Part shown: in pieces, positions 3,687-20,468 of the stretch
Position numbering within the stretch: the stretch's first letter is position 1
How the letters are laid out: each line of letters opens with the position of its first letter
From: Alkalibacillus aidingensis
GTDB lineage: Bacteria > Bacillota > Bacilli > Bacillales > Alkalibacillaceae
Direction of reading: 5' to 3'
DNA length: 64,000 bases
Assembly: GCF_014595945.1 (NCBI RefSeq)
Contig: NZ_JABXWU010000012.1
Location: 1 to 64,000 of the forward strand
Translations under genes and position numbers: made by a program
Notes under the pieces: model-generated
The model's input: only the letters and a program-made list of their open reading frames with translations
Told to the model about the DNA's origin: nothing
Database searches by the model: none

Positions 3687-4271
3687 GTGAATTTAACAGA
3701 ACGAAAAATGAAACGTAAAAGAGAACAAATTCTACAAGCAGCTATTAGCATTATTAAAAGACGAGGGTACAGTGGAACAACAATGGAAGAAATAGCTTCT
3801 GAGTTACTGATGACGAAAGGCTCACTTTATTATTATTTCAAAAATAAGAGTGATTTAATGTATCAATGTCATAACTTTACATTATCGCAAGCAATTGAAG
3901 ATCACCATGACATCTTAAATAGAGGCCTATCTCCAACTGAAACTTTCTATGAAATGGTCAGCCTACATATTGAGTACGCTGTTGAACAAAAGGAAACATT
4001 TAATCTAATTATGGAACCAAAGCGTTTCTTTGCAGGGGAGAAATTACCACTAGTATTAAAGTTAAGAAAGGAATATGAAGAATTATTCGACTCTGTGATC
4101 GCAGACGGGGTACAAAAAGGTGAATTTTCACCTAAAGACCCAAAAATAGCTCGTTTATTTATATTAGGATCAATGAACTGGATTCAACAGTGGTATCGAC
4201 CTGATGGAACGCTTAATAAACAAGAGTTAAAGGATATTTATTTTGACTATATAATGAAAATTTTAAGATGA
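3687..4271 (+). CDS. TetR-family regulator of the acyl-CoA catabolic operon
   Basis: The 194-residue protein has an N-terminal TetR helix-turn-helix (about 8-55), with I-L-Q-A-A-I, G-Y-S-G-T-T-M-E-E-I-A and K-G-S-L-Y-Y-Y-F-K-N-K, and a variable helical ligand domain after it. It starts with GTG behind AGGTGGG. It is the first gene of the operon and ends 12 bp before the acyl-CoA synthetase, like FadR- or PsrA-type regulators of fatty-acid degradation that respond to acyl-CoAs. It is probably autoregulatory through the palindromes at 3536-3556 and 3634-3653. The ligand is likely an acyl-CoA of the pathway (inference). Confidence 0.88.
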   Translation: MNLTERKMKRKREQILQAAISIIKRRGYSGTTMEEIASELLMTKGSLYYYFKNKSDLMYQCHNFTLSQAIEDHHDILNRGLSPTETFYEMVSLHIEYAVEQKETFNLIMEPKRFFAGEKLPLVLKLRKEYEELFDSVIADGVQKGEFSPKDPKIARLFILGSMNWIQQWYRPDGTLNKQELKDIYFDYIMKILR

Positions 4272-4283
4272 AAGGAGTAAAGT

Positions 4284-5867
4284 ATGATCGTACAAGAGAT
4301 TGATTTATTTAATAGGTCTGGAATTAAAGTTTTTGAAGAACGGCCTGAAAACCTTAACGAGGTCTTAAGTCAAAGTGTTCAAAAGTTCCCTGAGAAGGAG
4401 GCGATTGTATCTGAAGAAATCAGTCTAACTTATAGGGAATTAGATGAGTATTCTACAAAGATTGCAGCCTATCTTCAGAATGAATGTTTAGTAAAACCAG
4501 GAGACCGTATAGCAACTGTTATAGGGAATCGGTATCAATTTGTCCCTATTCTCTTTGCCTGCTCGAAGGTCGGTGCAATTATGGTACCTGTGAATGTTAA
4601 ATTAAGCGTCGAGGAAAAGAGTTACATATTAACACATTCAGATATCAAAGTTTTAATGTCTGAGGGAGGCTATCAGCAAGAAGTAGAACAAATTAAATCA
4701 GTTCACCAGTCGTCATTGCCAGATGAAGAATCAATTTTTTATCTGGACCATGATTATTTATTTAGTCAACTACTCAACCATCAATATTCCTATCAACCAG
4801 TAGAAGTGAAAGAAACAGATTCCGCATATATTTTATACACCTCAGGAACAACAGGAAAGCCAAAAGGGGCGATCCTTAGTCACATCAATGTAATCCACAG
4901 CTTAATGAACTACCAACAAATATTTCAAACTCACCACGACTTAAAAACATTAATAGCAGTTCCATTGTTTCATGTAACAGGTCTTGTCGGTCAGCTATTA
5001 CACATGGTTTATATCGGGGGTACGGCCCACATTATGAATCGTTATCAGAACCAAAAGTATATAGATCTAATATTGAAATATCGTATTAATTTCCTGTTTA
5101 ATGTCCCAACCATTTTTATCATGATGTCAACCGAGGAATCCTTCCAAAATAACAGCTTTGATTTTGTTACTAAGGTTGCATTTGGTGGTTCTCCGATCTA
5201 TGAACAAACATTTAATATGTTACGTCATGCTTTTCCAAATGCTGAATTGCATAATGCTTACGGCTCTACAGAAACAACATCTCCGGCTACGCTAATGCCA
5301 GTCAAGTACCCAGAATCAAAGGTAAGGTCAGTAGGTAAAGCAGTTCCTGTTGCAGACATTAAAGTAGTGGATGAACAAGGTATTGAATGTCAACCAGGTC
5401 AAACAGGTGAGATTCTCATTAAAGGTCCAATGGTAGTTAAAGGTTATTGGCGAAACCAAGAAGCAAATGAGAAAAACTTCTTAGAAGGATACTGGAAGTC
5501 CGGAGATATTGGTTGTATGGATGAGGATGGTTATTTTTATGTTCTGGATCGTAAAAAAGATATGATCAGTCGAGGTGGAGAAAAAATTTTTTCTATTGAA
5601 GTTGAGGATGTGTTAAAGGCTCATCCTGAGGTTAATGAGGCAGCAGTTGTTGGAATTCCTGACGCTGTCTATGGAGAAAGGGTTAAGGCATTTATAGCTT
5701 CTGACCACTTAGACGAACATCATCTCGATAAAATCAAGTTACATTGTAAAAATAGGTTAGCCAAATACAAAGTCCCTGAAATCATTGAAATCGTTGATGA
5801 ACTCCCAAGAAATGCATCGGGTAAAATTCTTAAAACGCAATTAAAAAATAATAATGGAGGGTTATAA
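4284..5867 (+). CDS. AMP-dependent acyl-CoA synthetase (ligase)
   Basis: The 527-residue enzyme is a class I adenylate-forming ligase. The P-loop [11 protein letters not shown] (about 183-193), the Y-G-S-T-E-T-T block, the W-K-S-G-D-I-G hinge region with D-R-K-K-D-M-I, and the C-terminal catalytic Lys in N-A-S-G-K-I-L-K are all present. It activates a carboxylic acid with ATP and CoA, the entry step of the pathway. The ribosome binding site is AAAGGAG. It is followed by the dehydrogenase with almost no gap. The substrate chain cannot be read from sequence; co-location with a TRAP importer suggests a small organic acid. Confidence 0.92.
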
Positions 5868-5868
5868 A

Positions 5869-7086
5869 ATGCTGAAGGAATTATCACCACGTGTTCAAGA
5901 GTTAAGAGTTGAGCTTATTGAGTTTATGGAACAATACATCTATCCTAATGAATCTGTATTTGAAAAACAGTTAGAGAATGGAAAATCACGCTGGGAAGTC
6001 CCACCGATAGTTGAAGAGTTAAAACAAAAAGCGAAGGAAAAGGGACTTTGGAATCTGTTTATACCTAAAGAATACGGGTATGGAGCGGGTTTAACAAACT
6101 TCGAATACGCTCACTTATGCGAAGTTATGGGTCGTTCATTAATGGCTCCAGAGATTTTTAACTGTAATGCGCCGGATACTGGGAATATGGAAGTTTTAAT
6201 TAAATATGGTACAGAGGAACAAAAGAAGAAGTGGTTAGAACCTCTATTAGAAGGCGAAATAAGATCTGTTTTCTCAATGACTGAACCCGATGTAGCTTCT
6301 TCAGATGCGACAAACATTCAAGGTGAGATTATTAGAGATGGTGATGAATACGTCATTAACGCTAAGAAGTGGTGGTCTACTGCAGCTTTAGATCCACGTT
6401 GTAAGGTAGCTATAGTGATGGGAAAATCAGACCCTAACGAAAAGAAGCACTTACAACAATCTATGATTCTAGTTCCTTTTGATACACCTGGTGTAGAAGT
6501 GAAAAGACCTCTAAGTGTCTTCGGTTATGATCACGCACCACAAGGTCACGCTGAAGTTCACTATAACAATGTTAGAGTCCCAAAAGAGAATATTTTATTA
6601 GGGGAAGGTAGAGGATTTGAAATTGCACAAGGTCGCTTAGGACCTGGTCGTATCCATCATTGCATGCGTGCAATTGGGGCTGCAGAGAGAGCCTTAGAAT
6701 TGTTAATTGACCGTGCAAATAAAAGGGAAGTATTTGGAAGTAAAATGGTCGATAAAGATACTGTGCGTGAGCAAATTGCTAGAACAAGAATTGAGATTGA
6801 ACAGGCAAGACTACTCACTTTACAAGCAGCTAATACGATTGACCAAGAAGGTACAAAAGCTGCCCGGAAAGAGATTGCGATGATTAAGGTTGTCGCGCCA
6901 ACTATTTCTTTAAATGCAATAGATCGTGCGATGCAAGTACACGGTGGGGGAGGTTTTTCACAAGACTTTCCATTAGCAGAGCATTGGGCAAATGCTAGAA
7001 CGTTACGTGTACTAGATGGTCCGGATGAGGTTCATTTAAGAGATATTGCTAAATTAGAGGTAAGAAATCAGCTTAACAATCATTAA
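5869..7086 (+). CDS. ACAD10/11-like acyl-CoA dehydrogenase family protein
   Basis: The 405-residue flavoprotein has the ACAD FAD block [12 protein letters not shown] (about 140-151). Its C-terminal half strongly recalls ACAD10/ACAD11 and Pseudomonas Lva[22 protein letters not shown], and L-D-G-P-D-E-V-H-L where ordinary ACADs have Y-E-G-T with the catalytic Glu. Family members eliminate phosphate from 4-phosphoacyl-CoA rather than carrying out a normal oxidation. The matching kinase domain, fused in animal ACAD10/11, is a separate gene at 13561 in this operon. GGAGGG positions the ATG at 5869, not the earlier in-frame ATG at 5854. Confidence 0.88.
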
Positions 7087-7098
7087 GGGGGTTGATGT

Positions 7099-8100
7099 AT
7101 GAAGAGTTACTTCGTTACACAATTAGGGGAACCTAAAGATGCGCTAGTAGTTAAAGAGTCAGCTCAACCTAATTTGCAAAATGATCAGATATTAATAAGA
7201 GTGGAGGCCTTTGCCTTAAACTTTTTTGATATTTTGCAGTGTCAAGGAAAATATCAGGAAAAACCAGAATTACCTTTTACCCCAGGTGCAGAAGTGGCAG
7301 GCGTCATTGAAGAAGTTGGTTCAGCTATTAGTAGCTATGATGTTGGTCAAAGAGTATTGGCAACGCCTTTATTACCAAATGGAGGATACTCTGAGTATGT
7401 AGCAATTCATGAATCAAATGTATTTCCAATTCCGGATGAATTGAGTTATTCAAAAGCTGCCTCCATGTTCATTACTTACCATACAGCTTATTATGCATTA
7501 AAAGAACGTGCTCAGTTAAGACGTGGAGAGAGCGTACTCGTTCATGCAGGATCTGGAGGGGTCGGTTCAGCTGCCATTCAATTAGCAAAAACAATGGGGG
7601 CAACCGTATTTGCGACAGCTGGAAGTGAAGAAAAGTTAGGTGTTTGTAAAGAGCTCGGTGCGGATCATGTCATTAATTATCGTGAGGAATCCTTTGAAAA
7701 AGTCGTCAAAGAGTTAACAGGTCATAAAGGTGCTGATGTGATATTTGATCCTGTAGGTGGTGACGTTTTCCACCGTTCTCGAAAATGTATTAACTTCTCG
7801 GGGAGGATTTTATTAATTGGTTTTGCAGGGGGTGACATGCAAGATGCTCCGATGAACCACGCTTTAATTAAAAATTATTCATTAGTAGGTGTACATTTTG
7901 GATATTTCCGTCAATTGTTTCCTGAAAAAGTGAAAGAAGCACATGAAGAATTAATGGTATTGTATCAACAAGGATCTATTAATCCGTTAATCTATCAAAC
8001 CTACTCATTCAACCAAGTCGTAGAAGGTTTGGAGGATTTAGCATCTAGAAGAACCTATGGGAAGGTTGTTGTTCAGCCAATCATAGAAGGGAGTGATTAA
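7099..8100 (+). CDS. Zinc-free MDR oxidoreductase (NADPH:quinone reductase-like)
   Basis: The 333-residue protein belongs to the medium-chain dehydrogenase/reductase superfamily. The N-terminal GroES-like part contains F-T-P-G-A-E-V-A-G-V-I (about 61-71), and the Rossmann fold has V-H-A-G-S-G-G-V-G-S-A-A-I-Q-L-A (about 149-164). The usual zinc-binding Cys and Glu residues of alcohol dehydrogenases are not evident, which points to the quinone-oxidoreductase or enoyl-reductase branch. In this operon it could reduce an enoyl-CoA or carbonyl intermediate (inference). Its stop is directly followed by the GTG of the next gene. Confidence 0.85.
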   Translation: MKSYFVTQLGEPKDALVVKESAQPNLQNDQILIRVEAFALNFFDILQCQGKYQEKPELPFTPGAEVAGVIEEVGSAISSYDVGQRVLATPLLPNGGYSEYVAIHESNVFPIPDELSYSKAASMFITYHTAYYALKERAQLRRGESVLVHAGSGGVGSAAIQLAKTMGATVFATAGSEEKLGVCKELGADHVINYREESFEKVVKELTGHKGADVIFDPVGGDVFHRSRKCINFSGRILLIGFAGGDMQDAPMNHALIKNYSLVGVHFGYFRQLFPEKVKEAHEELMVLYQQGSINPLIYQTYSFNQVVEGLEDLASRRTYGKVVVQPIIEGSD

Positions 8101-8877
8101 GTGAGCGATATTGTAACTTCTAGTATAGAAGGAAGTGTAGCGTATGTATGCATGAATCGGGATACAAAGCTAAATGCCCTATCTAGGGATTTAGTAAAAC
8201 AGTTGTTAGTTACGTTAGATCAAGTTTCAGCTGACGACCAGGTTAAAGTAGTTGTTTTAAAAGGGCATGGAAAGGCATTTTGTTCAGGTGGTGACTTGGA
8301 AACCATGTCAACAATTGAAACCGCTTACGAGTCACTGGAATGGATTGACTCAGTTGCTGAGCTAACAACGAAAATTAGGTCGTTGAAGCCATATGTAGTA
8401 GCGAAGGTTCAAGGTTATGCAGCAGGTGCAGGTTTTAGCTTAGCAATGGCTTGTGATTTTGTCATCGCAAAGCAGGACGCCAAATTTGCCATAAGCTTTA
8501 CTAATGTGGGTTTAATACCAGACTTAGGGCTTATTAAATCTTTAACAGACCGAGTATCACCTCCTTTGGTTAAGGAGTGGGTCTCATCAGGAAAGGTTTT
8601 AAGTGCTAAAGAAGCTTTCGATTACCAGTTGATTAATAGAATTGCTGAAGGTTCTTTAGATGAGGAAGTGGAAGAGTTTATACAATTTATCTTAAATGGA
8701 CCGAGTGCAGCTAATCGGTATGTAAAAGATATTGTTAATGTAGCCGGCGAGTTAACTTTTGAGCAATGTATCGAGAAAGAAAATAAGATTCAAGCAATTT
8801 TACTTCAAACAGAAGATCACCAAGAAGGTATTCAAGCATTTTTGGAAAAAAGAAGTCCACAATTTAAAGGACGTTAA
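8101..8877 (+). CDS. Enoyl-CoA hydratase/isomerase family protein, isomerase-like active site
   Basis: The 258-residue crotonase starts with GTG directly after the previous stop. It has the CoA-binding and oxyanion segments A-F-C-S-G-G-D-L and A-A-G-A-G-F-S-L-A-M-A-C-D. Neither of the two catalytic Glu residues of rat-type hydratases is present: G-F-S-L stands where hydratases have G-x-E-L, and F-T-N-V-G-L-I-P-D-L-G carries an Asp at the position used by PaaG-like isomerases. It is therefore more likely a double-bond isomerase than a hydratase. It is one of three crotonases in the operon. Confidence 0.85.
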   Translation: MSDIVTSSIEGSVAYVCMNRDTKLNALSRDLVKQLLVTLDQVSADDQVKVVVLKGHGKAFCSGGDLETMSTIETAYESLEWIDSVAELTTKIRSLKPYVVAKVQGYAAGAGFSLAMACDFVIAKQDAKFAISFTNVGLIPDLGLIKSLTDRVSPPLVKEWVSSGKVLSAKEAFDYQLINRIAEGSLDEEVEEFIQFILNGPSAANRYVKDIVNVAGELTFEQCIEKENKIQAILLQTEDHQEGIQAFLEKRSPQFKGR

Positions 8878-8907
8878 TGAAAGTTATATCAAAGGGGAGG
8901 CTTTAAG

Positions 8908-9999
8908 ATGAAAATAAGTAGAATGTTATTTTTTGTGGCGTTATTGAGTGTCCTATTGTTAGCAGCTTGTGGTGATTCGGGTGATGGCGAAACGATCGAG
9001 TTAAGAGCAGCAACAGGGTTGAGTTCTCAACACGCATGGTGGGATGCAACCATGGTTCCGTGGATGGATCGTGTTGAAGAGTTAACAGATGGTCAAGTAC
9101 AATTTGAAACATTTACTGGTGGTGAGCTCGTTGATGTTCCCGATGAAGCAGAAGCAACGCTAGATGGGACGATTGATGTTGGTTTGATTCTACCAATATA
9201 TGAACCCGATCAATATCCAATGGCAGAAGTGACGATGTTACCACTAGCTCATTCAGATACGTTAATTGCAACGCGTGCTTGGAACCGTTTATTAACTGAA
9301 AGTATGGAGCTACAAGATGGTGAAAGTTATTCAGATATGCAATTCTCAGAGTTTAAAATATTCCCAACATCGACAACTCAGGAGTACTCGATTTCCACTA
9401 CAGGACATTCATTTGAAACGGTTGATGATGTAGAAGGGACTTCATTAAGAACCCCTTCAAGAATACATGAGCTTTATTCTGAAAAGACAGGGATTAATAG
9501 TGTGACTATGCCTGCTGTTGAAATGTTTGACGCATTAAGCCGTGGATCGTTCGAGGGTAGCTATTATAGTATTGCAGACTGGTCCGGTTATGGATTCCAG
9601 GATTTATTTGAGTATACGCTTACTGGAATTAACTTTGGTCACTTTAATGCATTTATCGGAATGAGCGACGATCGTTTTGATGAATTACCAGAAAATGTTC
9701 AAGAGGCAATGGAACAAGCCGCTGAAGAAGTGTTGATTCCTGGTGGCGAAGAGTGGTTAGATCGTGCCGAAGAAATGATTGATTATAACGAAGATGAAGG
9801 TGGAGAATTCGTTGAATTTGATACTTTAGATCAATCGGTTCAAGATCATTTTAATGAAGGTATTGAAGAGACTTGGTTAGAATATGCAGAATTGCTTGAA
9901 GACCAAGGACTACCGGGGACGGACTTAATCATTCTTTGGAGAGATCTCATCATTGAAGAAGGTGGAGATGTCCCTGAGGCTTTAAAGGATATTGAGTAG
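8908..9999 (+). CDS. dctP: TRAP transporter substrate-binding lipoprotein (DctP family)
   Basis: The 363-residue protein starts with a lipoprotein signal ending in L-L-L-A-A-C (Cys about 21) and continues as a DctP-type solute receptor, with L-R-A-A-T-G near the mature N-terminus and the R-x-P-S family core (S-L-R-T-P-S-R, about 180-186), where an Arg usually binds a carboxylate. The mature protein is very acidic, as in halophiles. It captures an organic acid outside the cell for the DctM/DctQ permease. AAAGGGGAGG precedes the ATG. The ligand is unknown, but genomic context says it is the substrate of the acyl-CoA synthetase. Confidence 0.9.
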   Translation: MKISRMLFFVALLSVLLLAACGDSGDGETIELRAATGLSSQHAWWDATMVPWMDRVEELTDGQVQFETFTGGELVDVPDEAEATLDGTIDVGLILPIYEPDQYPMAEVTMLPLAHSDTLIATRAWNRLLTESMELQDGESYSDMQFSEFKIFPTSTTQEYSISTTGHSFETVDDVEGTSLRTPSRIHELYSEKTGINSVTMPAVEMFDALSRGSFEGSYYSIADWSGYGFQDLFEYTLTGINFGHFNAFIGMSDDRFDELPENVQEAMEQAAEEVLIPGGEEWLDRAEEMIDYNEDEGGEFVEFDTLDQSVQDHFNEGIEETWLEYAELLEDQGLPGTDLIILWRDLIIEEGGDVPEALKDIE

Positions 10000-10017
10000 T
10001 AAACATACCCCCTAAAC

Positions 10018-10047
10018 CTTACCACTCCTATGTCAAGGAGTGGTAAG
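10018..10047 (+). promoter_or_regulatory. Intercistronic hairpin between dctP and dctM
   Basis: CTTACCACTCCT pairs perfectly with AGGAGTGGTAAG around a 6-base loop. No T tract follows, so it is not a classical terminator. Stem-loops of this kind after the binding-protein gene often protect its mRNA 3' end and give more receptor than permease. Confidence 0.65.
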
Positions 10048-10087
10048 CGTTACATAAGTACTTTATTTAATAAGGAGGGGTTTAAGC

Positions 10088-11422
10088 ATGGATAACATAG
10101 TTATTATCGCCATTATATTAACAATGGTTGTTGTCTTGTTAATGTCTGGTTTATATATCCACTCGGTTTTATTTGCTGCAGGTATTATCGGATTAATTAT
10201 GCTAGAGGGCTTTAATTATCTTCCAGGGTTATTAGGAAATGAGTCGTTTAGAAGAGTTGCTAGTTATACATTAACAACGATTCCTTTATTCGTTTTGATG
10301 GCACAGTTTATCTTACAGGCAGGGATTGTTAGAGACGTCTTCTACCTTGTTAATAAAGCTGCTAGAGGAAGAAATAGTGTTTTAGGGATTTTAACATTAT
10401 CAATTGGTGGTGTGTTAGGGGCAGTCTCTGGTTCTGGGACAGCTACATCGGCATCGTTAGGTCAAGTGGCTATTCCTGAATTAAGGAAGCATGGTTACAG
10501 TGGTAGGTTAGCCGGTGCTATCGCTGCTTCGGGTGGGTCCTTGTCTGGAATTATTCCTCCTAGTATTATTCTAATTCTTTATGGTGTTGCAACTGAAACT
10601 CCAGTTGGCGCATTATTTATTGGAGCCATTATCCCAGGAATTATTGTTCTGCTAGTTTTTATTACGGTCATGCTAGTCTTTTATCAAGTAGAAAAGAAAC
10701 GGTCATCGCAAGCTGAACTGCCTGATGAGGAAGGTCAGCTAGAGGTTCATGGTAATCAACAAGTAAATCTATTACGATTATTCGTTGTTAGTTTTGCTGC
10801 GACGATGATTATGTTAGTTATCTTTGGTGGGATTTACTCAGGGTTATTCACCCCGACTGAAGCTGGTGGAGTGGGTGCTTTTGTTGCCTTTTTAGCTGCA
10901 GTTTGCTTAGGTAAAGTGAATTTTCAATTTTTACAACAATCATTGGTAGAAACCATTAAACTAACGGGAATGGTCATGTTGATTATGATTGGTGCTCAAA
11001 TCTTTGGAAGATTTGTTTCATTATCATTGCTACCTCGTAAATTAATTGATTTATTAGAACCAATTATGGAGCAGCCAGCGATTGTGTTAATTCTCATTTC
11101 ACTTTTTCTATTTGTGTTGTTTATGTTTATCGAAGGTGCAGCTGTTATTCTAATGACGATTCCAGTCCTATTACCTATAATGAATGCGTTACAAGTTGAT
11201 TTATTATGGTTTGGTGTTTTTGTGGGTATCATTTGTACGATTGGATTAATTACCCCTCCTGTTGGGCTGAGTGTTTATGCGGTTTCAGGTGTTAGTAAAA
11301 TTAGATCAGAAGCCATTTTTAAAGTGTGTATGATTTTTGCGTTATCTGCTTTGGCTATCGTTTGTGGGTTAATGATTCTATTCCCTGAAATTGCAACATT
11401 CTTACCAAGCTCTATGGATTAA
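10088..11422 (+). CDS. dctM: TRAP transporter large permease (DctM family)
   Basis: The 444-residue hydrophobic protein has about twelve membrane segments and the DctM signatures G-G-V-L-G-A-V-S-G-S-G-T-A-T-S-A (about 101-116), G-G-S-L-S-G-I-I-P-P-S (about 146-156), and F-T-P-T-E-A-G-G-V-G. It is the Na+-coupled translocating subunit. The gene order receptor, large subunit, small subunit differs from the common P-Q-M order. AAGGAGGGG is the ribosome binding site, and the hairpin upstream may lower its level relative to the receptor. Confidence 0.94.
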   Translation: MDNIVIIAIILTMVVVLLMSGLYIHSVLFAAGIIGLIMLEGFNYLPGLLGNESFRRVASYTLTTIPLFVLMAQFILQAGIVRDVFYLVNKAARGRNSVLGILTLSIGGVLGAVSGSGTATSASLGQVAIPELRKHGYSGRLAGAIAASGGSLSGIIPPSIILILYGVATETPVGALFIGAIIPGIIVLLVFITVMLVFYQVEKKRSSQAELPDEEGQLEVHGNQQVNLLRLFVVSFAATMIMLVIFGGIYSGLFTPTEAGGVGAFVAFLAAVCLGKVNFQFLQQSLVETIKLTGMVMLIMIGAQIFGRFVSLSLLPRKLIDLLEPIMEQPAIVLILISLFLFVLFMFIEGAAVILMTIPVLLPIMNALQVDLLWFGVFVGIICTIGLITPPVGLSVYAVSGVSKIRSEAIFKVCMIFALSALAIVCGLMILFPEIATFLPSSMD

Positions 11423-11443
11423 AAAGTGAAAGGGTGAATCTAA

Positions 11444-11989
11444 ATGGTTGCGATTGAAAAAGCTTATCATATTTTTGAAAAAATAAAGCTAATCGGTGTA
11501 TGGATCAGTGGCATCAGTTTATTTGGAATGATGTTATTTATCGTGATAGATGTGGTATTAAGAAATTTGTTTAACTCATCTATCAGTGGTGGTTTTGAAA
11601 TGGTTCAAAACTACTTTATGACATTAACCGTATTTCCGGCGTTAGCTTATGTTTATTCATCCGGGGTTCTACCCAAAATGGATCTATTAATAGAAAGGTT
11701 TCAGGATCAAGTTAAGAAGTTAATTATCTTCTTTATGATTGCTTTAGAGGTTTTCATATTAGCGATTATGTTTTATTTCTCACTTGATTATGCGATTAAT
11801 GGTTTTGAACGAAGCATGTCATTTCCTGCGGCAGGAACCTTATATCCGATTTACCCGTTTTTGTTTTTAATTCCTTTGGCCTTTTTCTTAATTGTCATTG
11901 AAAACATGTTTATTCTGATAAAAAATATCATGTTTAAAGAACCATCTTTTCTTTTTAAAGGTGATTCAACACAAGATTCTGGGGAGTAA
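11444..11989 (+). CDS. dctQ: TRAP transporter small permease (DctQ family)
   Basis: The 181-residue protein has four predicted membrane helices, with the typical DctQ features: a first helix ending in V-D-V-V-L-R-N (about 41-47) and a long loop before G-F-E-M-V-Q-N. It pairs with DctM in the membrane. It lies 21 bp behind dctM and is followed by the phosphatase gene 13 bp later, so it is in the middle of the operon. Confidence 0.9.
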   Translation: MVAIEKAYHIFEKIKLIGVWISGISLFGMMLFIVIDVVLRNLFNSSISGGFEMVQNYFMTLTVFPALAYVYSSGVLPKMDLLIERFQDQVKKLIIFFMIALEVFILAIMFYFSLDYAINGFERSMSFPAAGTLYPIYPFLFLIPLAFFLIVIENMFILIKNIMFKEPSFLFKGDSTQDSGE

Positions 11990-12002
11990 GTGAGGTTAGG
12001 TC

Positions 12003-12749
12003 ATGAGAAAAATATATGTTGTGACTCAAAAAGAGCTTGTCAATTCCGATCGTTTACAAGGCGCAACGGCTATTGTGATAGATGTGTTTTTGGCAACTTC
12101 GACAATTACATTTTTATTAGAGAAAAATTATCAGCCGGTTTATGCTGCTGAGAACCAGGAACATGCTATGAATATTGCGAATCAGTTAGGTAGTGATACC
12201 CCGTTAATGCTCGGAGAAAAAAATGGTGAATCCATTAATGGGTTCGGTTTCCCTGATCCACGATTACTTAAGCATAGTGAGCAACAAAACGCAGCGATTA
12301 TTTGCTCTACCAATGGAACACGAGCTATTGAAGCAGCGAAAAGAGCCAAAAAATTATATATATCTTCTATAACGAATGGACATTTAGTAGCCAAGTCTGT
12401 TGATCAAGAATCGATCAATCACTCTCCAATTGTATTAGTTTGTTCAGGTAATGGAGGACATTTCTCATTAGAAGACTTTGTAGGGGCTGGTCATATTATT
12501 GATCACTTACTTAAGAGTGGAGAATTTGAGTTAAACGATGCTGCAAAACTAGCTAGAAATACCTTTATAAACGTTAGGTCAAATAATTTTATCGATTTAT
12601 ACAGTTGTGATACAAAGCACTTATTAGAAAGGCTAGGTTATCCAGGTTCTGTTGATTATGTCATTAATCAGTTTGAGAAAGTAAATGTTATTCCAGTGTA
12701 TCAAGAAGGAAAGATTATGAACATATCATCGGAGGTTACTCAATCATAG
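12003..12749 (+). CDS. ComB-family (2-phosphosulfolactate phosphatase-like) phosphatase
   Basis: The 248-residue protein shows the ComB family pattern: V-I-D-V-F-L-A-T-S-T-I (about 25-35), G-E-K-N-G-E-S-I-N-G-F (about 70-80) and I-C-S-T-N-G-T-R-A-I (about 99-108). The founding member, from methanogens, is a Mg-dependent acid phosphatase acting on 2-phosphosulfolactate in coenzyme M synthesis. Bacilli do not make coenzyme M, so the substrate here is probably another phosphorylated hydroxy acid. Its place between TRAP genes and the acyl-CoA kinase gene suggests removal of phosphate from a pathway intermediate or by-product (inference). Confidence 0.8.
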   Translation: MRKIYVVTQKELVNSDRLQGATAIVIDVFLATSTITFLLEKNYQPVYAAENQEHAMNIANQLGSDTPLMLGEKNGESINGFGFPDPRLLKHSEQQNAAIICSTNGTRAIEAAKRAKKLYISSITNGHLVAKSVDQESINHSPIVLVCSGNGGHFSLEDFVGAGHIIDHLLKSGEFELNDAAKLARNTFINVRSNNFIDLYSCDTKHLLERLGYPGSVDYVINQFEKVNVIPVYQEGKIMNISSEVTQS

Positions 12750-12762
12750 GGAGGTTAGGGTA

Positions 12763-13539
12763 TTGACACAATTAGTAAATGTTCGTGTTGAGGATCATAT
12801 AGCGATTATTGAATTGAATCATCAGCCGTTGAATGTACTAACTAAACCATTTTTAGGTGATATTCATTCAGCTGTTGAAGTAGTTACATCAAACGAAGAG
12901 ATAAGGGCATTAGTGATTCAATCTGCTTCAGAGAAAGCTTTTGTTGCCGGAGCAGATATTAAACAATTTTCAGAACTGGACCCGTCTTCAGGTCAACAGT
13001 TAGTCGAACGTGGTAAACAAATCTTTGATCAAATACAGGATGCTAGATTTCCAGTCATATGCGCTATTAATGGGGTTGCATTAGGAGGGGGGTTGGAATT
13101 AGCTCTTGCTTGCGATATTAGGGTGGCAGAAAGTAAAGCTAAATTAGGACTACCTGAGACTGGGTTAGGTGTATTACCAGGCTATGGTGGAACACAAAGA
13201 CTCGCTAGATTAATAGGTTTGGGTAAAGCTAAGGAGATGATTTTTACAGGTGAACCTCTTAAAGCTGAAGAAGCCTATCGGTTGGGGTTAGTTGAACATC
13301 TCGTTAGTGATGGTAAATCACCAAAGGTGGCATTAGAGATAGCTGAGAAGATTGCCAAACAGGGTCCTATAGCCATAACAAATGCAAAAAAGGCAGTTAA
13401 CCAAGGCTTTGAGCTGCCACTCAATGAGGGGCAGCAAATCGAATCAGAGTTATTCGCACAACTATGTGAAACTCAGGACATACAAGAAGGTGTTGAGGCA
13501 TTTCTTGAAAAAAGAGATCCAGTTTTCAAAGGTGAATAG
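12763..13539 (+). CDS. Enoyl-CoA hydratase (both catalytic Glu present)
   Basis: The 258-residue crotonase begins with TTG behind GGGAGGT. It has the oxyanion segment A-F-V-A-G-A-D-I-K-Q-F and both catalytic acids of true hydratases: G-G-G-L-E-L-A-L-A-C-D (Glu about 112) and G-L-P-E-T-G-L-G-V-L-P-G-Y-G-G-T-Q-R (Glu about 132). It should hydrate a trans-2-enoyl-CoA to the 3S-hydroxyacyl-CoA used by the dehydrogenase at 18317. It is the only one of the three crotonases here with the canonical site. Confidence 0.92.
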   Translation: MTQLVNVRVEDHIAIIELNHQPLNVLTKPFLGDIHSAVEVVTSNEEIRALVIQSASEKAFVAGADIKQFSELDPSSGQQLVERGKQIFDQIQDARFPVICAINGVALGGGLELALACDIRVAESKAKLGLPETGLGVLPGYGGTQRLARLIGLGKAKEMIFTGEPLKAEEAYRLGLVEHLVSDGKSPKVALEIAEKIAKQGPIAITNAKKAVNQGFELPLNEGQQIESELFAQLCETQDIQEGVEAFLEKRDPVFKGE

Positions 13540-13560
13540 TTAGCAAGAGAGGAGGATTTC

Positions 13561-14610
13561 ATGACCACTAGTCAAGATTTTGTTGATCACAAATATATTA
13601 ACTGGGAGTTATTTGAACAATTTTTAAGAGAATCCGTTGAAGGTTTACCGGATAAACTGATGGATGTTAAGAAGTTTTCAGAAGGATACTCGAATCAAAC
13701 CTATCTTATTCAGGTCGGTGAGTGGGAAGGAGTTATGAGAAGACCCCCTTTTGGAGAAATTCCACCTAAGGCTCATGACATGGAAAGAGAACATAATTTG
13801 TTAAAGAAAATTAATCAAGCGTTTGATCTAGCACCCAAGCCATATGTCTATTCTGAGGGTAACCAGATAATGGATAAACACTTCTATATAATGGAAAAGA
13901 AAAATGGAATTGTTATTGATGAAAAGATCCCAAGTTGGTATGGGAAATCGGAAGATATTGGGGGCATCATTTCTGACCAAGTTATTGAAACCATGGTTAA
14001 GATGCAAGCAATCGATTATCGAAAAGCTAATTTGGAAGGTATCGGAAAACCAAATGGGTACTTGGAGAGACAGGTACATGGTTGGATAAAACGATTCAAC
14101 CGTTCAAAAACGGATGATGTTCATTCATTAGAACAACTGGAGCAATGGTTTGTGAATAGTATGCCCACTACAAAAGAATCAACCATTGTTCATAATGATT
14201 TTAAATTAAATAATATAGTATTGGATGAAAAGGTAGTAGGTAAAGTAAATGGTATCATTGATTGGGAGTTATCAACGATAGGAGACCCAATGACAGACTT
14301 AGGTTCAACAGTCGCGTATTGGGGAGAAGCAGGGGATCCTGATTTAGGTATTAATGTCGTTACTGATCAACCTGGATTCTATAGTCGACGTGACTTTTTA
14401 AGTCGTTATGCAGAGAAAAGTGGTCGTGATTTATCTGAAATTACGTTTTATGTTGCATTTGGTTTTTATAAATTAGCAGGTATCTTACAGCAAATCTATT
14501 ATCGTTGGAAAATCGGTGAATTAAAAGATAATCGTTTTAAGGAGTTAAATCATTCAATTAATAATTTACTAGAGATGGCTGAATTAACTAGTCAGAACCG
14601 TTTGTTATAG
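13561..14610 (+). CDS. APH-fold phosphotransferase, ACAD10/11 N-domain / LvaA type
   Basis: The 349-residue kinase-fold protein has a glycine loop S-E-G-Y-S-N-Q-T-Y-L-I (about 40-50), then M-R-R-P-P-F-G typical of the ACAD10/11 and LvaA clade. The catalytic loop is V-H-N-D-F-K-L-N-N (about 209-217), and the Mg-binding Asp is in I-I-D-W-E-L-S-T-I-G-D-P (about 232-243). In the P. putida levulinate pathway and in animal ACAD10/11 this domain phosphorylates the 4-hydroxyl of 4-hydroxyacyl-CoA; the dehydrogenase-like partner then removes phosphate. The partner gene here is at 5869. GAGGAGG is the ribosome binding site. Antibiotic resistance is unlikely. Confidence 0.88.
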   Translation: MTTSQDFVDHKYINWELFEQFLRESVEGLPDKLMDVKKFSEGYSNQTYLIQVGEWEGVMRRPPFGEIPPKAHDMEREHNLLKKINQAFDLAPKPYVYSEGNQIMDKHFYIMEKKNGIVIDEKIPSWYGKSEDIGGIISDQVIETMVKMQAIDYRKANLEGIGKPNGYLERQVHGWIKRFNRSKTDDVHSLEQLEQWFVNSMPTTKESTIVHNDFKLNNIVLDEKVVGKVNGIIDWELSTIGDPMTDLGSTVAYWGEAGDPDLGINVVTDQPGFYSRRDFLSRYAEKSGRDLSEITFYVAFGFYKLAGILQQIYYRWKIGELKDNRFKELNHSINNLLEMAELTSQNRLL

Positions 14611-14620
14611 GGGGTTACCA

Positions 14621-15055
14621 ATGAGTGAGGGGATATTCTATTACACTCCTTTAAAAGTTAGTGTCGAGCACATTTATCAGCTCTCTAAGATTTTAGGGTT
14701 TAAGGATGATGTTTATTATGATCGCAAAGAGGCTCAAAACCAAGGTTATGCGGACATATTAGCTCCCCCAACCTTTATGACATTGGTCGACTATTCAAAT
14801 GATAAAGACCTTTATCAGATGTTTGAAGCATTAAATATTGACGGTTCAAAAGTGTTACACGGTGAGCAATCTTATGACTATCTCCAACCTGTTGTTTCAG
14901 GAGACACTTTAGAAGCAGAGGCTAGAGTGATCGACAAAGTTGATAAAGGCGATAAACGTTTTTATAAGGTGAGAACGGACTACTATAATCAATCAGGGAA
15001 CAGAGTAGTTGTTGGCGAGGCAACATATATTGAATTGGATGTTAGGGATGAATAA
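14621..15055 (+). CDS. MaoC-like dehydratase subunit, FAS1-type N-terminal hotdog domain
   Basis: This 144-residue protein looks like the non-catalytic N-terminal hotdog half of a two-part MaoC dehydratase: A-P-P-T-F-M-T (about 48-54), H-G-E-Q-S-Y-D-Y (about 82-89) and P-V-V-S-G-D-T-L near the middle. The next gene supplies the catalytic half with the D-x-N-P-x-H motif, and the stop of one and the start of the other are adjacent. Together they would form an R-specific enoyl-CoA hydratase or 3-hydroxyacyl-CoA dehydratase, as in actinobacterial HadAB/HtdXY-like pairs. Confidence 0.82.
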   Translation: MSEGIFYYTPLKVSVEHIYQLSKILGFKDDVYYDRKEAQNQGYADILAPPTFMTLVDYSNDKDLYQMFEALNIDGSKVLHGEQSYDYLQPVVSGDTLEAEARVIDKVDKGDKRFYKVRTDYYNQSGNRVVVGEATYIELDVRDE

Positions 15056-15056
15056 G

Positions 15057-15410
15057 ATGGAACAGGAACCGTTTGAAAAAATAACTCAAACCCAATTAAT
15101 GGAATATGCTCAGATTTCAGGGGATTTAAACCCTATTCATATCGATGAGGGGGTTGCAAAGGAACTAGGTTATCAAACAAACTTTGCTCACGGTATGTTG
15201 ATATTAGGCCTGATTACCAGGTGGGTTCAAGATCGATACAAGAGTTACCAATTATCATCTATAAATACACGTTTTATCTCACCAATTTATAAAGAAGAAT
15301 CTTTATATTACTCGGAATCTATAAAAGAATCTGAGGTATTAGATGTCGAGATTATCAGTGAGAAAAATATAAGGAAACTGATAGCTACAGTCAACTTATC
15401 TAAACGATAG
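15057..15410 (+). CDS. MaoC-family dehydratase/hydratase, catalytic subunit
   Basis: The 117-residue hotdog protein has the R-hydratase motif S-G-D-L-N-P-I-H-I-D (about 16-25, catalytic Asp and His) and A-H-G-M-L (about 43-47). Several upstream in-frame starts overlap the previous gene; the ATG at 15057 begins one base after its TAA and has TTAGGG at suitable distance, so it is chosen, with 15048 as an alternative. It should pair with the hotdog protein encoded just upstream. Its R-stereochemistry would complement the S-specific crotonase at 12763. Confidence 0.85.
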   Translation: MEQEPFEKITQTQLMEYAQISGDLNPIHIDEGVAKELGYQTNFAHGMLILGLITRWVQDRYKSYQLSSINTRFISPIYKEESLYYSESIKESEVLDVEIISEKNIRKLIATVNLSKR

Positions 15411-15432
15411 CCTATAGTTGAGGAGGAATAAT

Positions 15433-16614
15433 ATGGGTAAAGTATATTTAATTAATGGAGCACGAACACCTTTTACGGCCTTTGGTGGATCGTTTGTTGA
15501 CACAGATGCAGTACAGTTAGGGGTAGCAACGGCTAAGGAGGCTCTAAAGCGATCTCAAGTATCCCCATCTAATGTGGATCAAGTAATTTATGGGAATGTG
15601 ATCCAGTCTGGAAAAAATGCTGCATATTTATCACGTCATATTGGTCTGTACAGTGATGTACCTAAAGAAATACCAGCGTTAACGTTAAATCGCCTGTGTG
15701 GATCCGGTTTACAATCTGTTGTAACGGGGGCACAACAGGTCTTACTAAATGAAGCGAATATCGTATTAGCTGGTGGTTCTGAGAACATGTCACAGGCTCC
15801 TTTTTCGAATTTTAAACAGCGTTTTAAAGGGGTGAAAATGGGAGAATTAGCTTTTGAAGATATGCTTCAAGCAACATTAACTGATCAGTATACAGGTAAA
15901 GGTATGGGGATGACGGCTGAGAAGCTTGCAGAGTTACATGGCATCTCTAGGGAAGAGCAGGATGCCTATTCAGTGGAATCCCACAAGCGCGCAACTCAAG
16001 CCGTTGAAAATAGGACGTTCGAAGAGGAGATTGTGCCTGTTGAGGTAAAGAAACGTCGAGATACAGTACAAATTTCTAAAGATGAACATATCAAACCAGA
16101 CTCGACAGTTGAAGTCATGTCAAAATTAAAACCCGTATTCAAACAAGATGGAACGGTTACTGCTGCTAACTCATCAGGCATTAATGATGGGGCAGCTAGT
16201 GTTGTTATAGCTGGTGAAAAAGCGATTCAAGAGCACCAGGTATCACCTATGGTAGAAATTAAATCATGGGGAGTTGCAGGAGTCGACCCAACTATTATGG
16301 GAATTGGACCTGTCCCTGCTATTAATCAGGCTTTACAAAGAGCTAACCTAACTATTGATGATATGGATTTAGTAGAAGTAAATGAAGCATTTGCTGCTCA
16401 GTATTTAGCAGTTGAAAAGGAGTTAGGGTTAGATCGTTCTAAAACGAATGTAAACGGGGGAGCTATTGCGTTAGGTCATCCTGTTGGTGCTAGTGGAACC
16501 CGTGTTTTGTTAACAGCTGCTTATGAATTAAAACGCAGAGAAGGTCGCTACGCCGTTGTTAGTTTATGCATTGGTGGTGGCCAAGGGATAGCTGTGGTGA
16601 TTGAGAATGTCTAA
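15433..16614 (+). CDS. Thiolase (acetyl-CoA acyltransferase)
   Basis: The 393-residue enzyme shows all thiolase active-site blocks: N-R-L-C-G-S-G-L-Q-S-V (nucleophilic Cys about 88), V-N-E-A-F-A-A-Q, G-G-A-I-A-L-G-H-P-V-G-A-S-G (His about 349) and C-I-G-G-G-Q-G (Cys about 379). It cleaves a 3-ketoacyl-CoA to acetyl-CoA or propionyl-CoA plus a shortened acyl-CoA, the last step of a beta-oxidation turn. GAGGAGG places the start at 15433. It overlaps the next gene by 8 bases. Confidence 0.94.
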   Translation: MGKVYLINGARTPFTAFGGSFVDTDAVQLGVATAKEALKRSQVSPSNVDQVIYGNVIQSGKNAAYLSRHIGLYSDVPKEIPALTLNRLCGSGLQSVVTGAQQVLLNEANIVLAGGSENMSQAPFSNFKQRFKGVKMGELAFEDMLQATLTDQYTGKGMGMTAEKLAELHGISREEQDAYSVESHKRATQAVENRTFEEEIVPVEVKKRRDTVQISKDEHIKPDSTVEVMSKLKPVFKQDGTVTAANSSGINDGAASVVIAGEKAIQEHQVSPMVEIKSWGVAGVDPTIMGIGPVPAINQALQRANLTIDDMDLVEVNEAFAAQYLAVEKELGLDRSKTNVNGGAIALGHPVGASGTRVLLTAAYELKRREGRYAVVSLCIGGGQGIAVVIENV

Positions 16615-17515
16615 GCTACCTTTAATTGTTGCGCCGATGTTTTTAGTATCAACTCCTAAGATGGTAATTGAAGCAGGAAAGTCAGGAGTAATAGGGTCGT
16701 TCCCCTTATTAAATGCTAGACCGATCGAAACATGTGTAGAATGGTTAAAGGAAGTAAAAGCTGAGCTAACTGATCAGCCTTGGGCGGTCAATTTTATTGC
16801 TCATAAAAAATCAAATAAACGATATACTGAGGACCTTGAGTTAATTAGGGAATACCAACCACCGATTGTAATTACCTCTCTTGGTAGTCCAAAAGAAGCC
16901 ATTGAGGTCGTACACGGCTATGGTGGGACTGTTTATTCAGATGTCGCAACAGTGGAACATGCTAAGAAAGCTGCTCGATCTGGTGTGGATGGGTTAATCC
17001 TAGTCTGTGCTGGAGCTGGAGGCCACGGTGGAACATTAAACCCATTTGCATTTATAGCTGCCGTTAAAGAATTTTATGACGGTAAAATTGTTTTATCAGG
17101 CAGTATATCAACAGGAAAAGATATAGCAGCTGCTCAACTAATGGGAGCAGATTATGCATATATGGGAACTCGTTTCTTGGTGGCTAAGGAAAGTCATGCA
17201 CCTGAAGCATATAAAGACATGGTACTTGAGTCAACTATGGAAGATGTTATATATACAGATGCTTTTAGTGGTGTACACGCTAATTTGTTAAAGCCGAGTT
17301 TAAGAAAACAAGGAATTGACCCTCATGAGTTGACTTCAAAAGGAGAAGTTGATTTAACACACTTAGTTGATGTGAAAGCATGGCGAGATCTTTGGTCGGC
17401 CGGACATGGAGTTACAACGGTTAAAGAGAAGAAAACGACTAAAGAAATTATTAATCAGTTAAGCGAAGAATATGGAAAGGGGGTCATGCAACTTGTACCA
17501 AACGTTAAAAGTTGA
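16607..17515 (+). CDS. Nitronate monooxygenase / 2-nitropropane dioxygenase-like flavoprotein
   Basis: The 302-residue protein has the FMN TIM-barrel pattern of this family: P-L-I-V-A-P-M-F (about 4-11), the V-C-A-G-A-G-G-H-G-G block (about 126-135) with the likely catalytic His, and L-S-G-S-I-S-T-G with M-G-A-D-Y-A-Y-M-G-T-R-F (phosphate binding). The family includes true nitronate oxidases but also enzymes of acyl-CoA pathways, such as mycobacterial IpdC in steroid ring degradation, so oxidation of a CoA-bound ring or branched intermediate is possible. It overlaps both neighbours, which implies translational coupling. Confidence 0.85.
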   Translation: MSKLPLIVAPMFLVSTPKMVIEAGKSGVIGSFPLLNARPIETCVEWLKEVKAELTDQPWAVNFIAHKKSNKRYTEDLELIREYQPPIVITSLGSPKEAIEVVHGYGGTVYSDVATVEHAKKAARSGVDGLILVCAGAGGHGGTLNPFAFIAAVKEFYDGKIVLSGSISTGKDIAAAQLMGADYAYMGTRFLVAKESHAPEAYKDMVLESTMEDVIYTDAFSGVHANLLKPSLRKQGIDPHELTSKGEVDLTHLVDVKAWRDLWSAGHGVTTVKEKKTTKEIINQLSEEYGKGVMQLVPNVKS

Positions 17516-18314
17516 ACAGGATGAAGGTATCTTAACGGTGACATTAAATCGACCTGATGCGATGAATGCATATACTTATCAGATGAACGAGGAGCTAATG
17601 AATGTTTATCAAAAAGCGAATCAAGATGATCAGGTAAGAGTCATTATTGTGACAGGGGCAGGCCGAGCCTTTTGTGCTGGCATGGATCTTGATGAAGGTG
17701 ATACCACGTTTCAAACTGAAGATACGATAGAATCCTTTCGTGATATTGGTGGGAAAACGAGTCTAACGGTTTATGAACTAAATAAACCAATTATCGCGGC
17801 CATTAATGGTCCTGCTGTTGGCATTGGTCTAACGATGACATTACCAATGGATCTAAGAATTGTTAAGAAAAATACCAAAATCGGATTTGTCTTTGGAAGA
17901 AGGGGAATCGGACCTGAAGCAGCATCGGGCTGGTTTTTACCTCGTGTGGTACCAATGGGGAAAGCCTTAGAGTGGACGTTAACTGGGAGAATGATTCCGA
18001 CCGAGGAAGCATATCAGGCTGGGTTAGTTCAATATGAGGAGGAAGATCCGTTAAATAAAGCATATGAGATTGCTAGAGAAATCGTCGAAAATACGGCAGC
18101 TACATCGAATGCATTTACTAGACAGTTAATTTGGCAAATGAGAGGAGATCAACATCCTGAACGATCGCATTTAATTGAATCAAAGTATTTATATTGGGCT
18201 AGTAGAAACAAAGATTCAAAAGAGGGGATCGAATCTTTTATGGAAAAGCGAAAGCCAGATTTTCCACTATCAGCTAGTGATTTACCAAACTTTTTTACAG
18301 AAAAGAGGGAGTAG
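17493..18314 (+). CDS. Enoyl-CoA hydratase/isomerase family protein (G-P-E type site)
   Basis: The 273-residue crotonase starts at TTG 17493, with AAAGGGGG at 17476-17483; the in-frame ATG at 17472 lies upstream of that site. It overlaps the previous gene by 23 bases. Motifs are A-F-C-A-G-M-D-L and G-P-A-V-G-I-G-L-T-M-T. The first hydratase Glu is replaced (G-L-T-M) and the second site reads R-R-G-I-G-P-E-A-A-S-G-W, with Glu at the position where PaaG-like isomerases carry Asp. It is probably an isomerase or an atypical hydratase. Confidence 0.85.
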   Translation: MYQTLKVEQDEGILTVTLNRPDAMNAYTYQMNEELMNVYQKANQDDQVRVIIVTGAGRAFCAGMDLDEGDTTFQTEDTIESFRDIGGKTSLTVYELNKPIIAAINGPAVGIGLTMTLPMDLRIVKKNTKIGFVFGRRGIGPEAASGWFLPRVVPMGKALEWTLTGRMIPTEEAYQAGLVQYEEEDPLNKAYEIAREIVENTAATSNAFTRQLIWQMRGDQHPERSHLIESKYLYWASRNKDSKEGIESFMEKRKPDFPLSASDLPNFFTEKRE

Positions 18315-18316
18315 TC

Positions 18317-19156: not shown

Positions 19157-19164
19157 GTTTAAAT

Positions 19165-19190
19165 AGGGTTCAAAATCCCTTTTTCTATTT
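19165..19190 (+). terminator. Possible weak terminator at the end of the acyl-CoA operon
   Basis: AGGG and CCCT form a short stem around TTCAAAAT, followed by TTTTTCTATTT. The stem is only 4-5 bp, so read-through into the amidohydrolase gene is possible. Confidence 0.4.
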
Positions 19191-19272
19191 CGACCCCCGA
19201 AGTAATTTACAAACTGGTAGACTTACTATATTATGAATATTAAGCAAATAAACAAAATTGGGGGAAGAGAGA

Positions 19273-20406: not shown

Positions 20407-20431
20407 TTATTAGTCATACCAGGAATCTTGC

Positions 20432-20468
20432 AGACTGTCTAAAACTAGTGGTTTTTAGACAGTCTTTT
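20432..20468 (+). terminator. Rho-independent terminator after the amidohydrolase
   Basis: AGACTGTCTAAAA pairs perfectly with TTTTAGACAGTCT around an 8-base loop and continues into T residues. Confidence 0.92.

Follow-up and report, generated by a model that had tools for sequence, protein, structure and literature searches.

Why would a gene for a phosphatase-fold protein stand beside a kinase that is predicted to act on 4-hydroxyacyl-CoA? The question is raised by an operon of Alkalibacillus aidingensis, which we analysed within a stretch of 64,000 nucleotides (NZ_JABXWU010000012.1, positions 1 to 64,000; called the window below), which is contig C4 of a 2.84 Mb genome in 25 contigs. The operon codes for an acyl-CoA dehydrogenase (ACAD) at 5869, an APH-type kinase at 13561 and a ComB-like protein (PF04029) at 12003. 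The initial annotation had seen the first two as a split ACAD10/11 system, surrounded by a CoA ligase, a TRAP importer and a beta-oxidation set. Ligase, TRAP subunits P, M and Q, three crotonases, thiolase and dehydrogenase are all there, but the PF04029 gene and a pair of MaoC-type hydratase genes (14621/15039) had gone unmentioned. We propose, with a probability of about 60%, that the operon serves the uptake and breakdown of 4-hydroxy (gamma-hydroxy) acids and that the ComB-like protein is a partner of the kinase, preferably a repair phosphatase.

Both reading frames (5869-7086 and 13561-14610) are intact, and the motifs reported for them (24 residues of motif sequence, and HNDFKLNN) are present; a second in-frame ATG for the ACAD is found at 5854. 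In phmmer comparisons with the PDB, the ACAD matches mouse ACAD11 (8v3u) with E 4.9e-145, another ACAD11 chain (2wbi) with E 3.8e-140 and 4hr3 with E 8.8e-130, while the best ordinary ACAD, 4iv6, is reached at E 1.6e-41. According to excerpts of PMC12440821, R626, H634 and R637 of mouse ACAD11 bind the substrate phosphate, D753 is the base and R631 is conserved. All five are kept in the window ACAD: R256, R261, H264, R267 and D383 (numbered from the ATG at 5869) correspond to R626, R631, H634, R637 and D753. In a tree of 71 ACAD rows (quick search), the window ACAD falls into a 24-row clade that includes mouse ACAD11, with a support of 100 in the SH-like approximate likelihood ratio test (SH-aLRT). 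Several rows of this tree have long branches, and its loose A11/typ group labels place ordinary ACADs under A11, so that the named clade alone was used. The bacterial members of the clade carry RLGPGR-[IV]HHCMR and DGPDxVH, and the rows nearest to the window ACAD are those of L014, L015 and L060. A 13-residue motif is exact in 102 of 117 ACADs that match the clade's own profile with E < 1e-150; of the remaining 15, 12 deviate in a single letter and three have no match to the script patterns. Judged from its sequence, the 5869 protein is thus an ACAD10/11-type ACAD, as had been claimed, and is predicted to convert 4-phosphoacyl-CoA to 2-enoyl-CoA.

The kinase matches the structures 9o56 (deposited as an aminoglycoside phosphotransferase; E 1.2e-97), the ACAD11 kinase domain (E 6e-43) and 3dxp (E 2e-40). 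Antibiotic kinases match only from E 3e-4 (macrolide kinase 5igh), and with the NCBIfam models for aminoglycoside and macrolide kinases the protein stays far below the cut-offs. Excerpts of PMC12440821 give D220 and N225 as catalytic in the ACAD11 kinase, and R86 and R176 as lying on the CoA side. In the window kinase H211, D213, N218, R76 and R170 are invariant among seven aligned kinases from four classes, R76/R170 being equated with the published R86/R176 by alignment only. The 13561 protein is the APH-type kinase that matches the ACAD10/11-type ACAD, which agrees with the initial annotation, and it is predicted to be a 4-hydroxyacyl-CoA kinase. A search of viral contigs found no homologue of it.

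The linkage of the ComB-like gene to this kinase carries our proposal. ACADs, PF04029 genes and kinase homologues were listed in one even draw of 299 genomes of the order, giving 150 PF04029 places in 136 of the 140 matching genomes and at least 150 kinase places; the linkage counts hold among the matches listed. The PF04029 genes could be divided into 120 strong (E <= 1e-44) and 30 weaker matches. The start lies within 15 kb of an ACAD for 99 of the strong genes and for none of the weaker ones, and 99 of 147 ACADs have a PF04029 gene within this distance. An ACAD occurs in 111 of 117 genomes with a strong PF04029 gene, compared to 134 of 299 overall (Fisher p 3e-50, kinship ignored). At least 92 of the 120 strong genes have a kinase homologue at no more than 400 bp, the order being kinase-then-ComB in 89 pairs and reversed in three. 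At least 12 more are found within 20 kb of a kinase, all 104 being on the same strand as the kinase, and 16 are not near any of the kinases listed. The adjacent pair exists in at least 91 genomes from 27 families and 40 genera. Within the family of the window, a PF04029 gene is near the ACAD at six of nine places, the window included. In the window and in L060, a crotonase gene lies between the ComB-like gene and the kinase gene. That the ComB-like protein is a dedicated partner of the kinase is thus well supported; its biochemical role, discussed below, we infer. Neither the ComB link nor recurring phosphatase-fold partners turned up in our literature searches.

A few loci show the pair in unusual states. 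In L020 (6229-7932, genome G015) the kinase and ComB-like genes are both in pieces, while the ACAD10/11-type gene is intact. In three loci (L050:9627-11405, L051:8881-10677 and L119:12204-13982) the ComB-like frame is not closed by a stop and reads on into an Abhydrolase_3 esterase domain, which may be a natural fusion; L052 has the two as separate genes. A fusion of kinase and ComB had been considered for G297 and G209, where ComB frames reach 593-599 residues, and was rejected since the extra part is the downstream Abhydrolase_3 esterase. There are also three loci (L055:7404-8594, L065:7573-8796 and L067:6760-8085) where a kinase-ComB pair is directly preceded by an ACAD from another clade, marked by LGPGRITHAMR and DGPDEVH and about 43% identical to the window ACAD, so that the pair can also go with a divergent ACAD. 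L113 (6237-9236), from an Archangium metagenome-assembled genome, has an open frame of 1000 residues with the ACAD as its C-terminal end.

Linked ComB-like proteins also differ from ComB in a residue. The ComB structures 1vr0, 2yyv and 2z0j, as well as the unlinked proteins of L063 and L064, have an arginine in D-x-[LIF]-R-A-[ST], while the window protein has Leu30 in this column. For comparison, we sampled 20 places from the linked strong matches and 20 from the 51 far from an ACAD, together with loci already in the set; some of the ComB-like sequences are near-identical (L050 and L119), and four further rows are gapped at the arginine column, being second pieces or esterase parts. Leu, Phe, Ile or Met is read in 48 PF04029 proteins, the window's included, and 47 of these share their stretch with a kinase or an ACAD. 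L015 and L059 have an ACAD and no kinase in the stretch, and L020 is the broken gene already described; L056 is a 20 kb stretch in which neither a kinase nor an ACAD10/11-type ACAD was found. Of 28 unlinked proteins, 22 have Arg and six Ser; the 22 from the order divide into 16 Arg and six Ser, and Arg is present in all six readable gammaproteobacterial ones. Since the unlinked proteins of L063, L064 and L211 score strongly yet have Arg, the residue tracks linkage better than the score does.

The core is otherwise kept (D27, E72, TNGT, N125, D158 and D179). The window protein matches eight NCBIfam ComB models, in each case below the cut-off (129.8 bits against 330 for the curated equivalog, 109.5 against 175 for TIGR00298). 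Because of the lost arginine and of these scores, we do not file it as ComB, the 2-phosphosulfolactate phosphatase with which it shares family and core residues and from which it further differs by its linkage to a 4-hydroxyacyl kinase homologue. It appears to form a sister subfamily of ComB that may still be a phosphatase. A cut ComB-like piece of the Phe type, counted among the 48, occurs in Burkholderiales (L112:1-198, minus strand), on the strand opposite to the kinase and 6.7 kb from it; this may be the Bacillota-type partner outside Bacillota.

Do kinases of other phyla have a comparable neighbour? Named genomes were scanned with the ACAD alignment, and the best 80 of at least 594 loci were inspected, 70 of them from outside Bacillota and 39 of these with a kinase. 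The kinase has a histidine phosphatase gene on its strand at no more than 130 bp in 21 of the 39. In L142 a PF00300 gene is within 400 bp, in L126 and L156 a SurE gene adjoins the kinase, and the remaining 15 have neither histidine phosphatase nor ComB-like nor SurE gene beside it. Nine of the ten Bacillota loci have the kinase or part of it, four with a ComB-like gene directly beside. No kinase among the 80 loci has both a histidine phosphatase and a ComB-like gene beside it.

To lessen bias, 185 Gammaproteobacteria were drawn, and the kinase profile (E <= 1e-95) detected 26 kinases in 22 of them. Within about 1.5 kb on each side, ten of these have a histidine phosphatase, one has SurE and 15 have neither. 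The histidine phosphatase profile gave 14 strong matches in 14 of the genomes, plus a weak second match, and 13 of the 14 also have the kinase (Fisher p 2e-13, kinship ignored). Ten of the strong matches are within 1.3 kb of the kinase and one is at 2.1 kb, as read by eye; three are not near it (G434, G414 and G344). The same profile has a single weak match in the 299 genomes of the window's order, while PF04029 occurs in seven of the 185 Gammaproteobacteria, none of which has the kinase. At the thresholds used, the partners exclude one another by lineage. In L149 (10622-13415), from Ectothiorhodospiraceae, SurE is on the opposite strand less than 1 kb from the kinase, divergent rather than in tandem, and a histidine phosphatase is 9 kb off; this locus was scored as partnerless.

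A tree was computed for 126 near-full-length kinases (quick search, no bootstrap; kinases below about 283 residues were left out), among which 40 have a histidine phosphatase, 20 a ComB-like and four a SurE gene within 800 bp on the same strand. All 20 ComB kinases are in one group of 29 rows (SH-aLRT 98), the four SurE kinases in one of six rows (99) and 32 of the 40 histidine phosphatase kinases in one of 45 rows (99), the others being elsewhere. The partner label changes only twice on the tree when labelled rows are considered; when "none" is counted as a label, there are 20 changes compared to 54 in shuffles. Such a pattern is compatible with a histidine phosphatase as the original partner, exchanged once for ComB-like and once for SurE. 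The Paraburkholderia-type histidine phosphatase has only 22% identity to the first row of the histidine phosphatase alignment (A3), so that it was likely recruited separately.

The histidine phosphatases have a replacement of their own. The second catalytic histidine is a serine in all 36 linked proteins that could be aligned there (four more could not), while the CobC structure 3hjg, a weak match with E 0.002, has His at this position and the Paraburkholderia-type protein of L155 keeps it. The SurE partners keep their NDDG motif. That all partners are dead enzymes was considered and rejected because of this motif and the kept ComB-like core.

With ComB-like, histidine phosphatase, SurE and the HAD domain of ACAD10, unrelated phosphatase folds recur beside one kinase. 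We consider it fairly likely that the 4-hydroxyacyl-CoA kinase has a widespread, hitherto unrecognised third component, which would either repair stranded 4-phospho products or sense them and brake the kinase. In this reading, three or more unrelated folds of phosphatases were recruited independently to the place beside the kinase: a Leu-variant of ComB in Bacillota, a Ser-variant of the histidine phosphatase among Proteobacteria, Actinobacteria and other groups, and SurE in part of the Gammaproteobacteria; the HAD domain of animal ACAD10 would be a further case.

The operon that surrounds the kinase in the window comprises 17 genes between 3687 and 19156, all on the plus strand and with gaps below 100 bp, followed by an amidohydrolase and a second CoA ligase gene that extend to 22182. 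Families were assigned by Pfam and NCBIfam scans; DctM, DctQ, thiolase, dehydrogenase and ligase B were named from sequence and BLAST neighbours.

3687-4271, plus strand: TetR-family regulator (Pfam TetR_N E 8e-15, TetR_C_24 E 5e-31); homologues with 64-66% identity head the related operons L014, L059 and L060
4284-5867, plus strand: acyl-CoA ligase A, AMP-forming (PF00501 E 8e-87)
5869-7086, plus strand: ACAD10/11-type ACAD, predicted to convert 4-phosphoacyl-CoA to 2-enoyl-CoA (PDB 8v3u, residues, tree)
7099-8100, plus strand: PIG3-like zinc-type NAD(P)H oxidoreductase (TIGR02824 E 5e-86, slightly below cut-off)
8101-8877, plus strand: crotonase family protein 1 (PF00378 E 4e-54)
8908-9999, plus strand: TRAP solute-binding protein DctP (PF03480 E 3e-26; NF037995 above cut-off)
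10088-11422, plus strand: TRAP large permease DctM (sequence; conserved in L059, L060 and L062)
11444-11989, plus strand: TRAP small permease DctQ (sequence; conserved in the same three loci)
12003-12749, plus strand: ComB-like phosphatase-fold protein, proposed kinase partner (PF04029 E 5e-47; PDB 1vr0 E 1e-24; linkage; Leu30)
12763-13539, plus strand: crotonase family protein 2, short-chain enoyl-CoA hydratase-like, TTG start (PF00378 E 4e-61)
13561-14610, plus strand: APH-type kinase, predicted 4-hydroxyacyl-CoA kinase (PF01636 E 3e-37; PDB 9o56; ACAD11 kinase domain)
14621-15055, plus strand: MaoC-type hydratase, N-terminal half, FAS1_DH_region (PF13452 E 1e-22)
15039-15410, plus strand: MaoC-type hydratase, C-terminal half (PF01575 E 4e-18, scanned from 15054)
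15433-16614, plus strand: thiolase (sequence; ATG with GGAGG at 15433; L014 homologue 71% identical)
16607-17515, plus strand: nitronate-monooxygenase/FabK-like flavoprotein (PF03060 E 2e-27, scanned from 16601)
17472-18314, plus strand: crotonase family protein 3 (NF006109 E 3e-106, above cut-off); start uncertain, the ribosome site being better for a TTG at 17493
18317-19156, plus strand: 3-hydroxyacyl-CoA dehydrogenase (sequence; homologues with 59-64% identity in L014, L060 and L021)
19273-20406, plus strand: amidohydrolase, possible distal operon gene (PF01979 E 4e-23)
20572-22182, plus strand: acyl-CoA ligase B, possible distal operon gene (sequence)

In the proposed pathway, the TRAP system would import a 4-hydroxy acid and ligase A would form its CoA thioester. 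The kinase would phosphorylate the 4-hydroxyl and the ACAD would remove the phosphate to give a 2-enoyl-CoA; these two steps are predicted by analogy with published experiments on ACAD10/11, LvaA/LvaC and Burkholderia orthologues and from the kept active-site residues. A crotonase or the MaoC-type hydratase, the dehydrogenase and the thiolase would complete beta-oxidation. The ComB-like protein would dephosphorylate stranded 4-phospho products, such as a free 4-phospho acid left after thioester hydrolysis or a less favoured stereoisomer, so that the 4-hydroxy acid could re-enter the pathway, a form of metabolite repair. Mammalian cells running the pathway do yield free 4-phospho acid, likely by hydrolysis of the CoA ester, according to excerpts of PMC11342911. 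The same excerpts describe the HAD domain of ACAD10 as a suspected phosphatase in which an Asp has been lost; its phosphatase activity is negligible, but it restrains the kinase. Together with PMC6692424 and our linkage counts, this makes phosphate handling or braking of the kinase the natural reading.

Between these two roles we somewhat favour repair for the ComB-like protein, since the ComB-like core and the NDDG motif of SurE are kept. Several points weigh against a repair phosphatase as dedicated kinase partner. With the ComB arginine and the second histidine lost, little or no phosphatase activity may be left, as reported for the HAD domain of ACAD10, and a phosphatase acting on 4-phosphoacyl-CoA itself would create a futile cycle. 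Among the matches listed, 48 of the 147 ACADs of the order have no PF04029 gene within 15 kb, and 62 of the 126 kinases in the tree lack a histidine phosphatase, ComB-like or SurE gene on their own strand up to a distance of 800 bp; some of the latter are paralogues, are from short loci or have the partner farther away. The Fisher p values ignore kinship, and some sampled sequences are near copies. The partner may instead be a product-sensing brake that binds the 4-phospho product and restrains the kinase without being a working phosphatase, which we regard as possible but doubtful. The exchange of the arginine for Leu, Phe, Ile or Met and the serine of the histidine phosphatases would both fit a brake, as would the behaviour of the ACAD10 HAD domain and the accessory subunit LvaB that binds LvaA in Pseudomonas putida (as cited in excerpts of PMC6692424). 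Against a brake speak the kept ComB-like core and the kept NDDG motif; the replaced arginine may not be catalytic, and the Paraburkholderia-type protein of L155 retains its histidine.

Two other explanations set the kinase link aside. If the ComB-like protein acted on another phosphate ester of the operon's substrate, its link to the kinase would reflect shared regulation of a broad catabolic island. The operon does contain genes of unclear role (PIG3-like, nitronate-monooxygenase-like and amidohydrolase), and a crotonase gene separates ComB-like and kinase genes here and in L060, but the pair stays adjacent in at least 91 genomes of the 27 families while other neighbours vary, and the histidine phosphatase or SurE found in this position in other phyla suggests a function tied to the kinase, so that we consider this explanation unlikely. 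It is highly improbable that the 5869 protein is a dehydrogenase of the ordinary kind, that the 13561 protein is a phosphotransferase of the aminoglycoside type or an unrelated one, and that little can be read from their occurring together: automatic families name just acyl-CoA dehydrogenase and APH, but a gap of about 100 orders of magnitude in E-value separates ACAD11 from ordinary ACADs, the phosphate-binding residues are kept, the ACAD groups with mouse ACAD11, and the antibiotic kinase models fail by far. A repair phosphatase as kinase partner thus remains our preferred reading.

That separate kinase and ACAD genes are unusual in a Gram-positive is not supported: in the draw of the order, the ACAD is found in 134 and a kinase homologue (E <= 1e-40) in 137 of 299 genomes, and with the recurring loci this makes the split form ordinary among the bacterial loci examined, though no search aimed at fused forms in bacteria was made. 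The operon has a patchy distribution, as the ACAD (E <= 1e-100) is present in eight of 22 genomes of the family, the window's included, and has no match in five of five other species of the genus. The version with TRAP genes (TetR, ligase, ACAD, PIG3, crotonase, TRAP, ComB-like, crotonase, kinase) also occurs in L060 and, up to the contig end, partly in L059; TRAP genes near the ACAD are also found in L062 and on a Tistrella plasmid. On this plasmid (L074), the ACAD10/11-type gene is followed by an HPr-kinase-like reading frame (8299-9249; PF07475 E 8e-8, below cut-off), no APH-type kinase is annotated in its 15 kb stretch, and TRAP genes and AtuA adjoin; this is a possible non-homologous kinase. 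In 17 of the 80 named loci, all from Pseudomonas or Atopomonas (L082, L084, L086-L091, L093-L095, L097-L101 and L141), an ACAD of this clade has no kinase detected nearby; in ten of ten searched Pseudomonas genomes among these, the kinase is elsewhere in the genome. At 34464-36838 and 38520-43290, the window also has genes named only from sequence as a pair resembling cytochrome bd oxidase and as a set for the uptake of iron-siderophores (FecCD-type permease, binding protein and ATPase).

Concerning the substrate, a pathway for 4-hydroxy or gamma-substituted acids had been suggested. 4-Hydroxyacyl-CoA is the most likely class, given the ACAD10/11 type, the kept phosphate residues and the clade shared with mouse ACAD11. 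Levulinate as a substrate is unsupported: no short-chain reductase of the LvaD type was seen among the proteins encoded from 3687 to 22182 (14 of 19 scanned with Pfam, the other five judged from sequence), so that a ready 4-hydroxy acid or lactone is likelier. In the close relative G013 (L014:11431-12507, minus strand), an operon of the same kind has a phosphotriesterase-type (PTE-type) gene between ligase and kinase. Its nearest structures are 3tn3/4h9u, followed by DR0930, enzymes which we take to be lactonases; L014 has no ComB-like gene in its 20 kb stretch. A lactonase as a standing neighbour was rejected, since PTE-like, SMP-30-like and HSL-like genes account for just 11 locus/family combinations in 116 loci and no lactonase-like gene was found in the window, which leaves the lactonase link a hint.

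The animal proteins ACAD10 and ACAD11 belong to the same two families and have the same active-site residues as the window ACAD and kinase, which are predicted to perform the same two steps. In the window, the genes are separate and part of a bacterial operon with TRAP importer and beta-oxidation, and in place of the degenerate HAD domain of ACAD10 there is a ComB-like gene with a kept core. The lva operon of P. putida also has separate kinase and ACAD genes, LvaA and LvaC, for 4-hydroxyacyl-CoA, a likeness by description in excerpts of PMC12440821 and PMC11342911. That the gene set differs from lva, as proposed initially, is borne out by the unseen LvaD-type reductase, a different importer and the ComB-like gene. 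LvaB is a 12 kDa partner of LvaA (as cited in excerpts of PMC6692424); in the window operon, with its gaps below 100 bp to 19156, no further small gene was seen, though no LvaB profile search was made. Excerpts of PMC6692424 also describe P. citronellolis LA18T, where a histidine phosphatase gene, and not lvaB, stands beside the LvaA homologue. This is again a phosphatase-family gene next to the kinase, from a family unrelated to PF04029, and it is treated there as a feature of one strain.

The ACAD10/11 pathway of mammals was reportedly described only in 2024-2025. If genes for unrelated phosphatase folds have repeatedly been set next to the kinase in bacteria, there is a third need in the pathway: either stranded phospho acid has to be cleared or the kinase has to be braked. 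The bacterial partners would then be ready, separate proteins with which to ask why ACAD10 carries a phosphatase-like domain. The linkage also suggests what the many genes may do that, by family alone, would now be named 2-phosphosulfolactate phosphatase.

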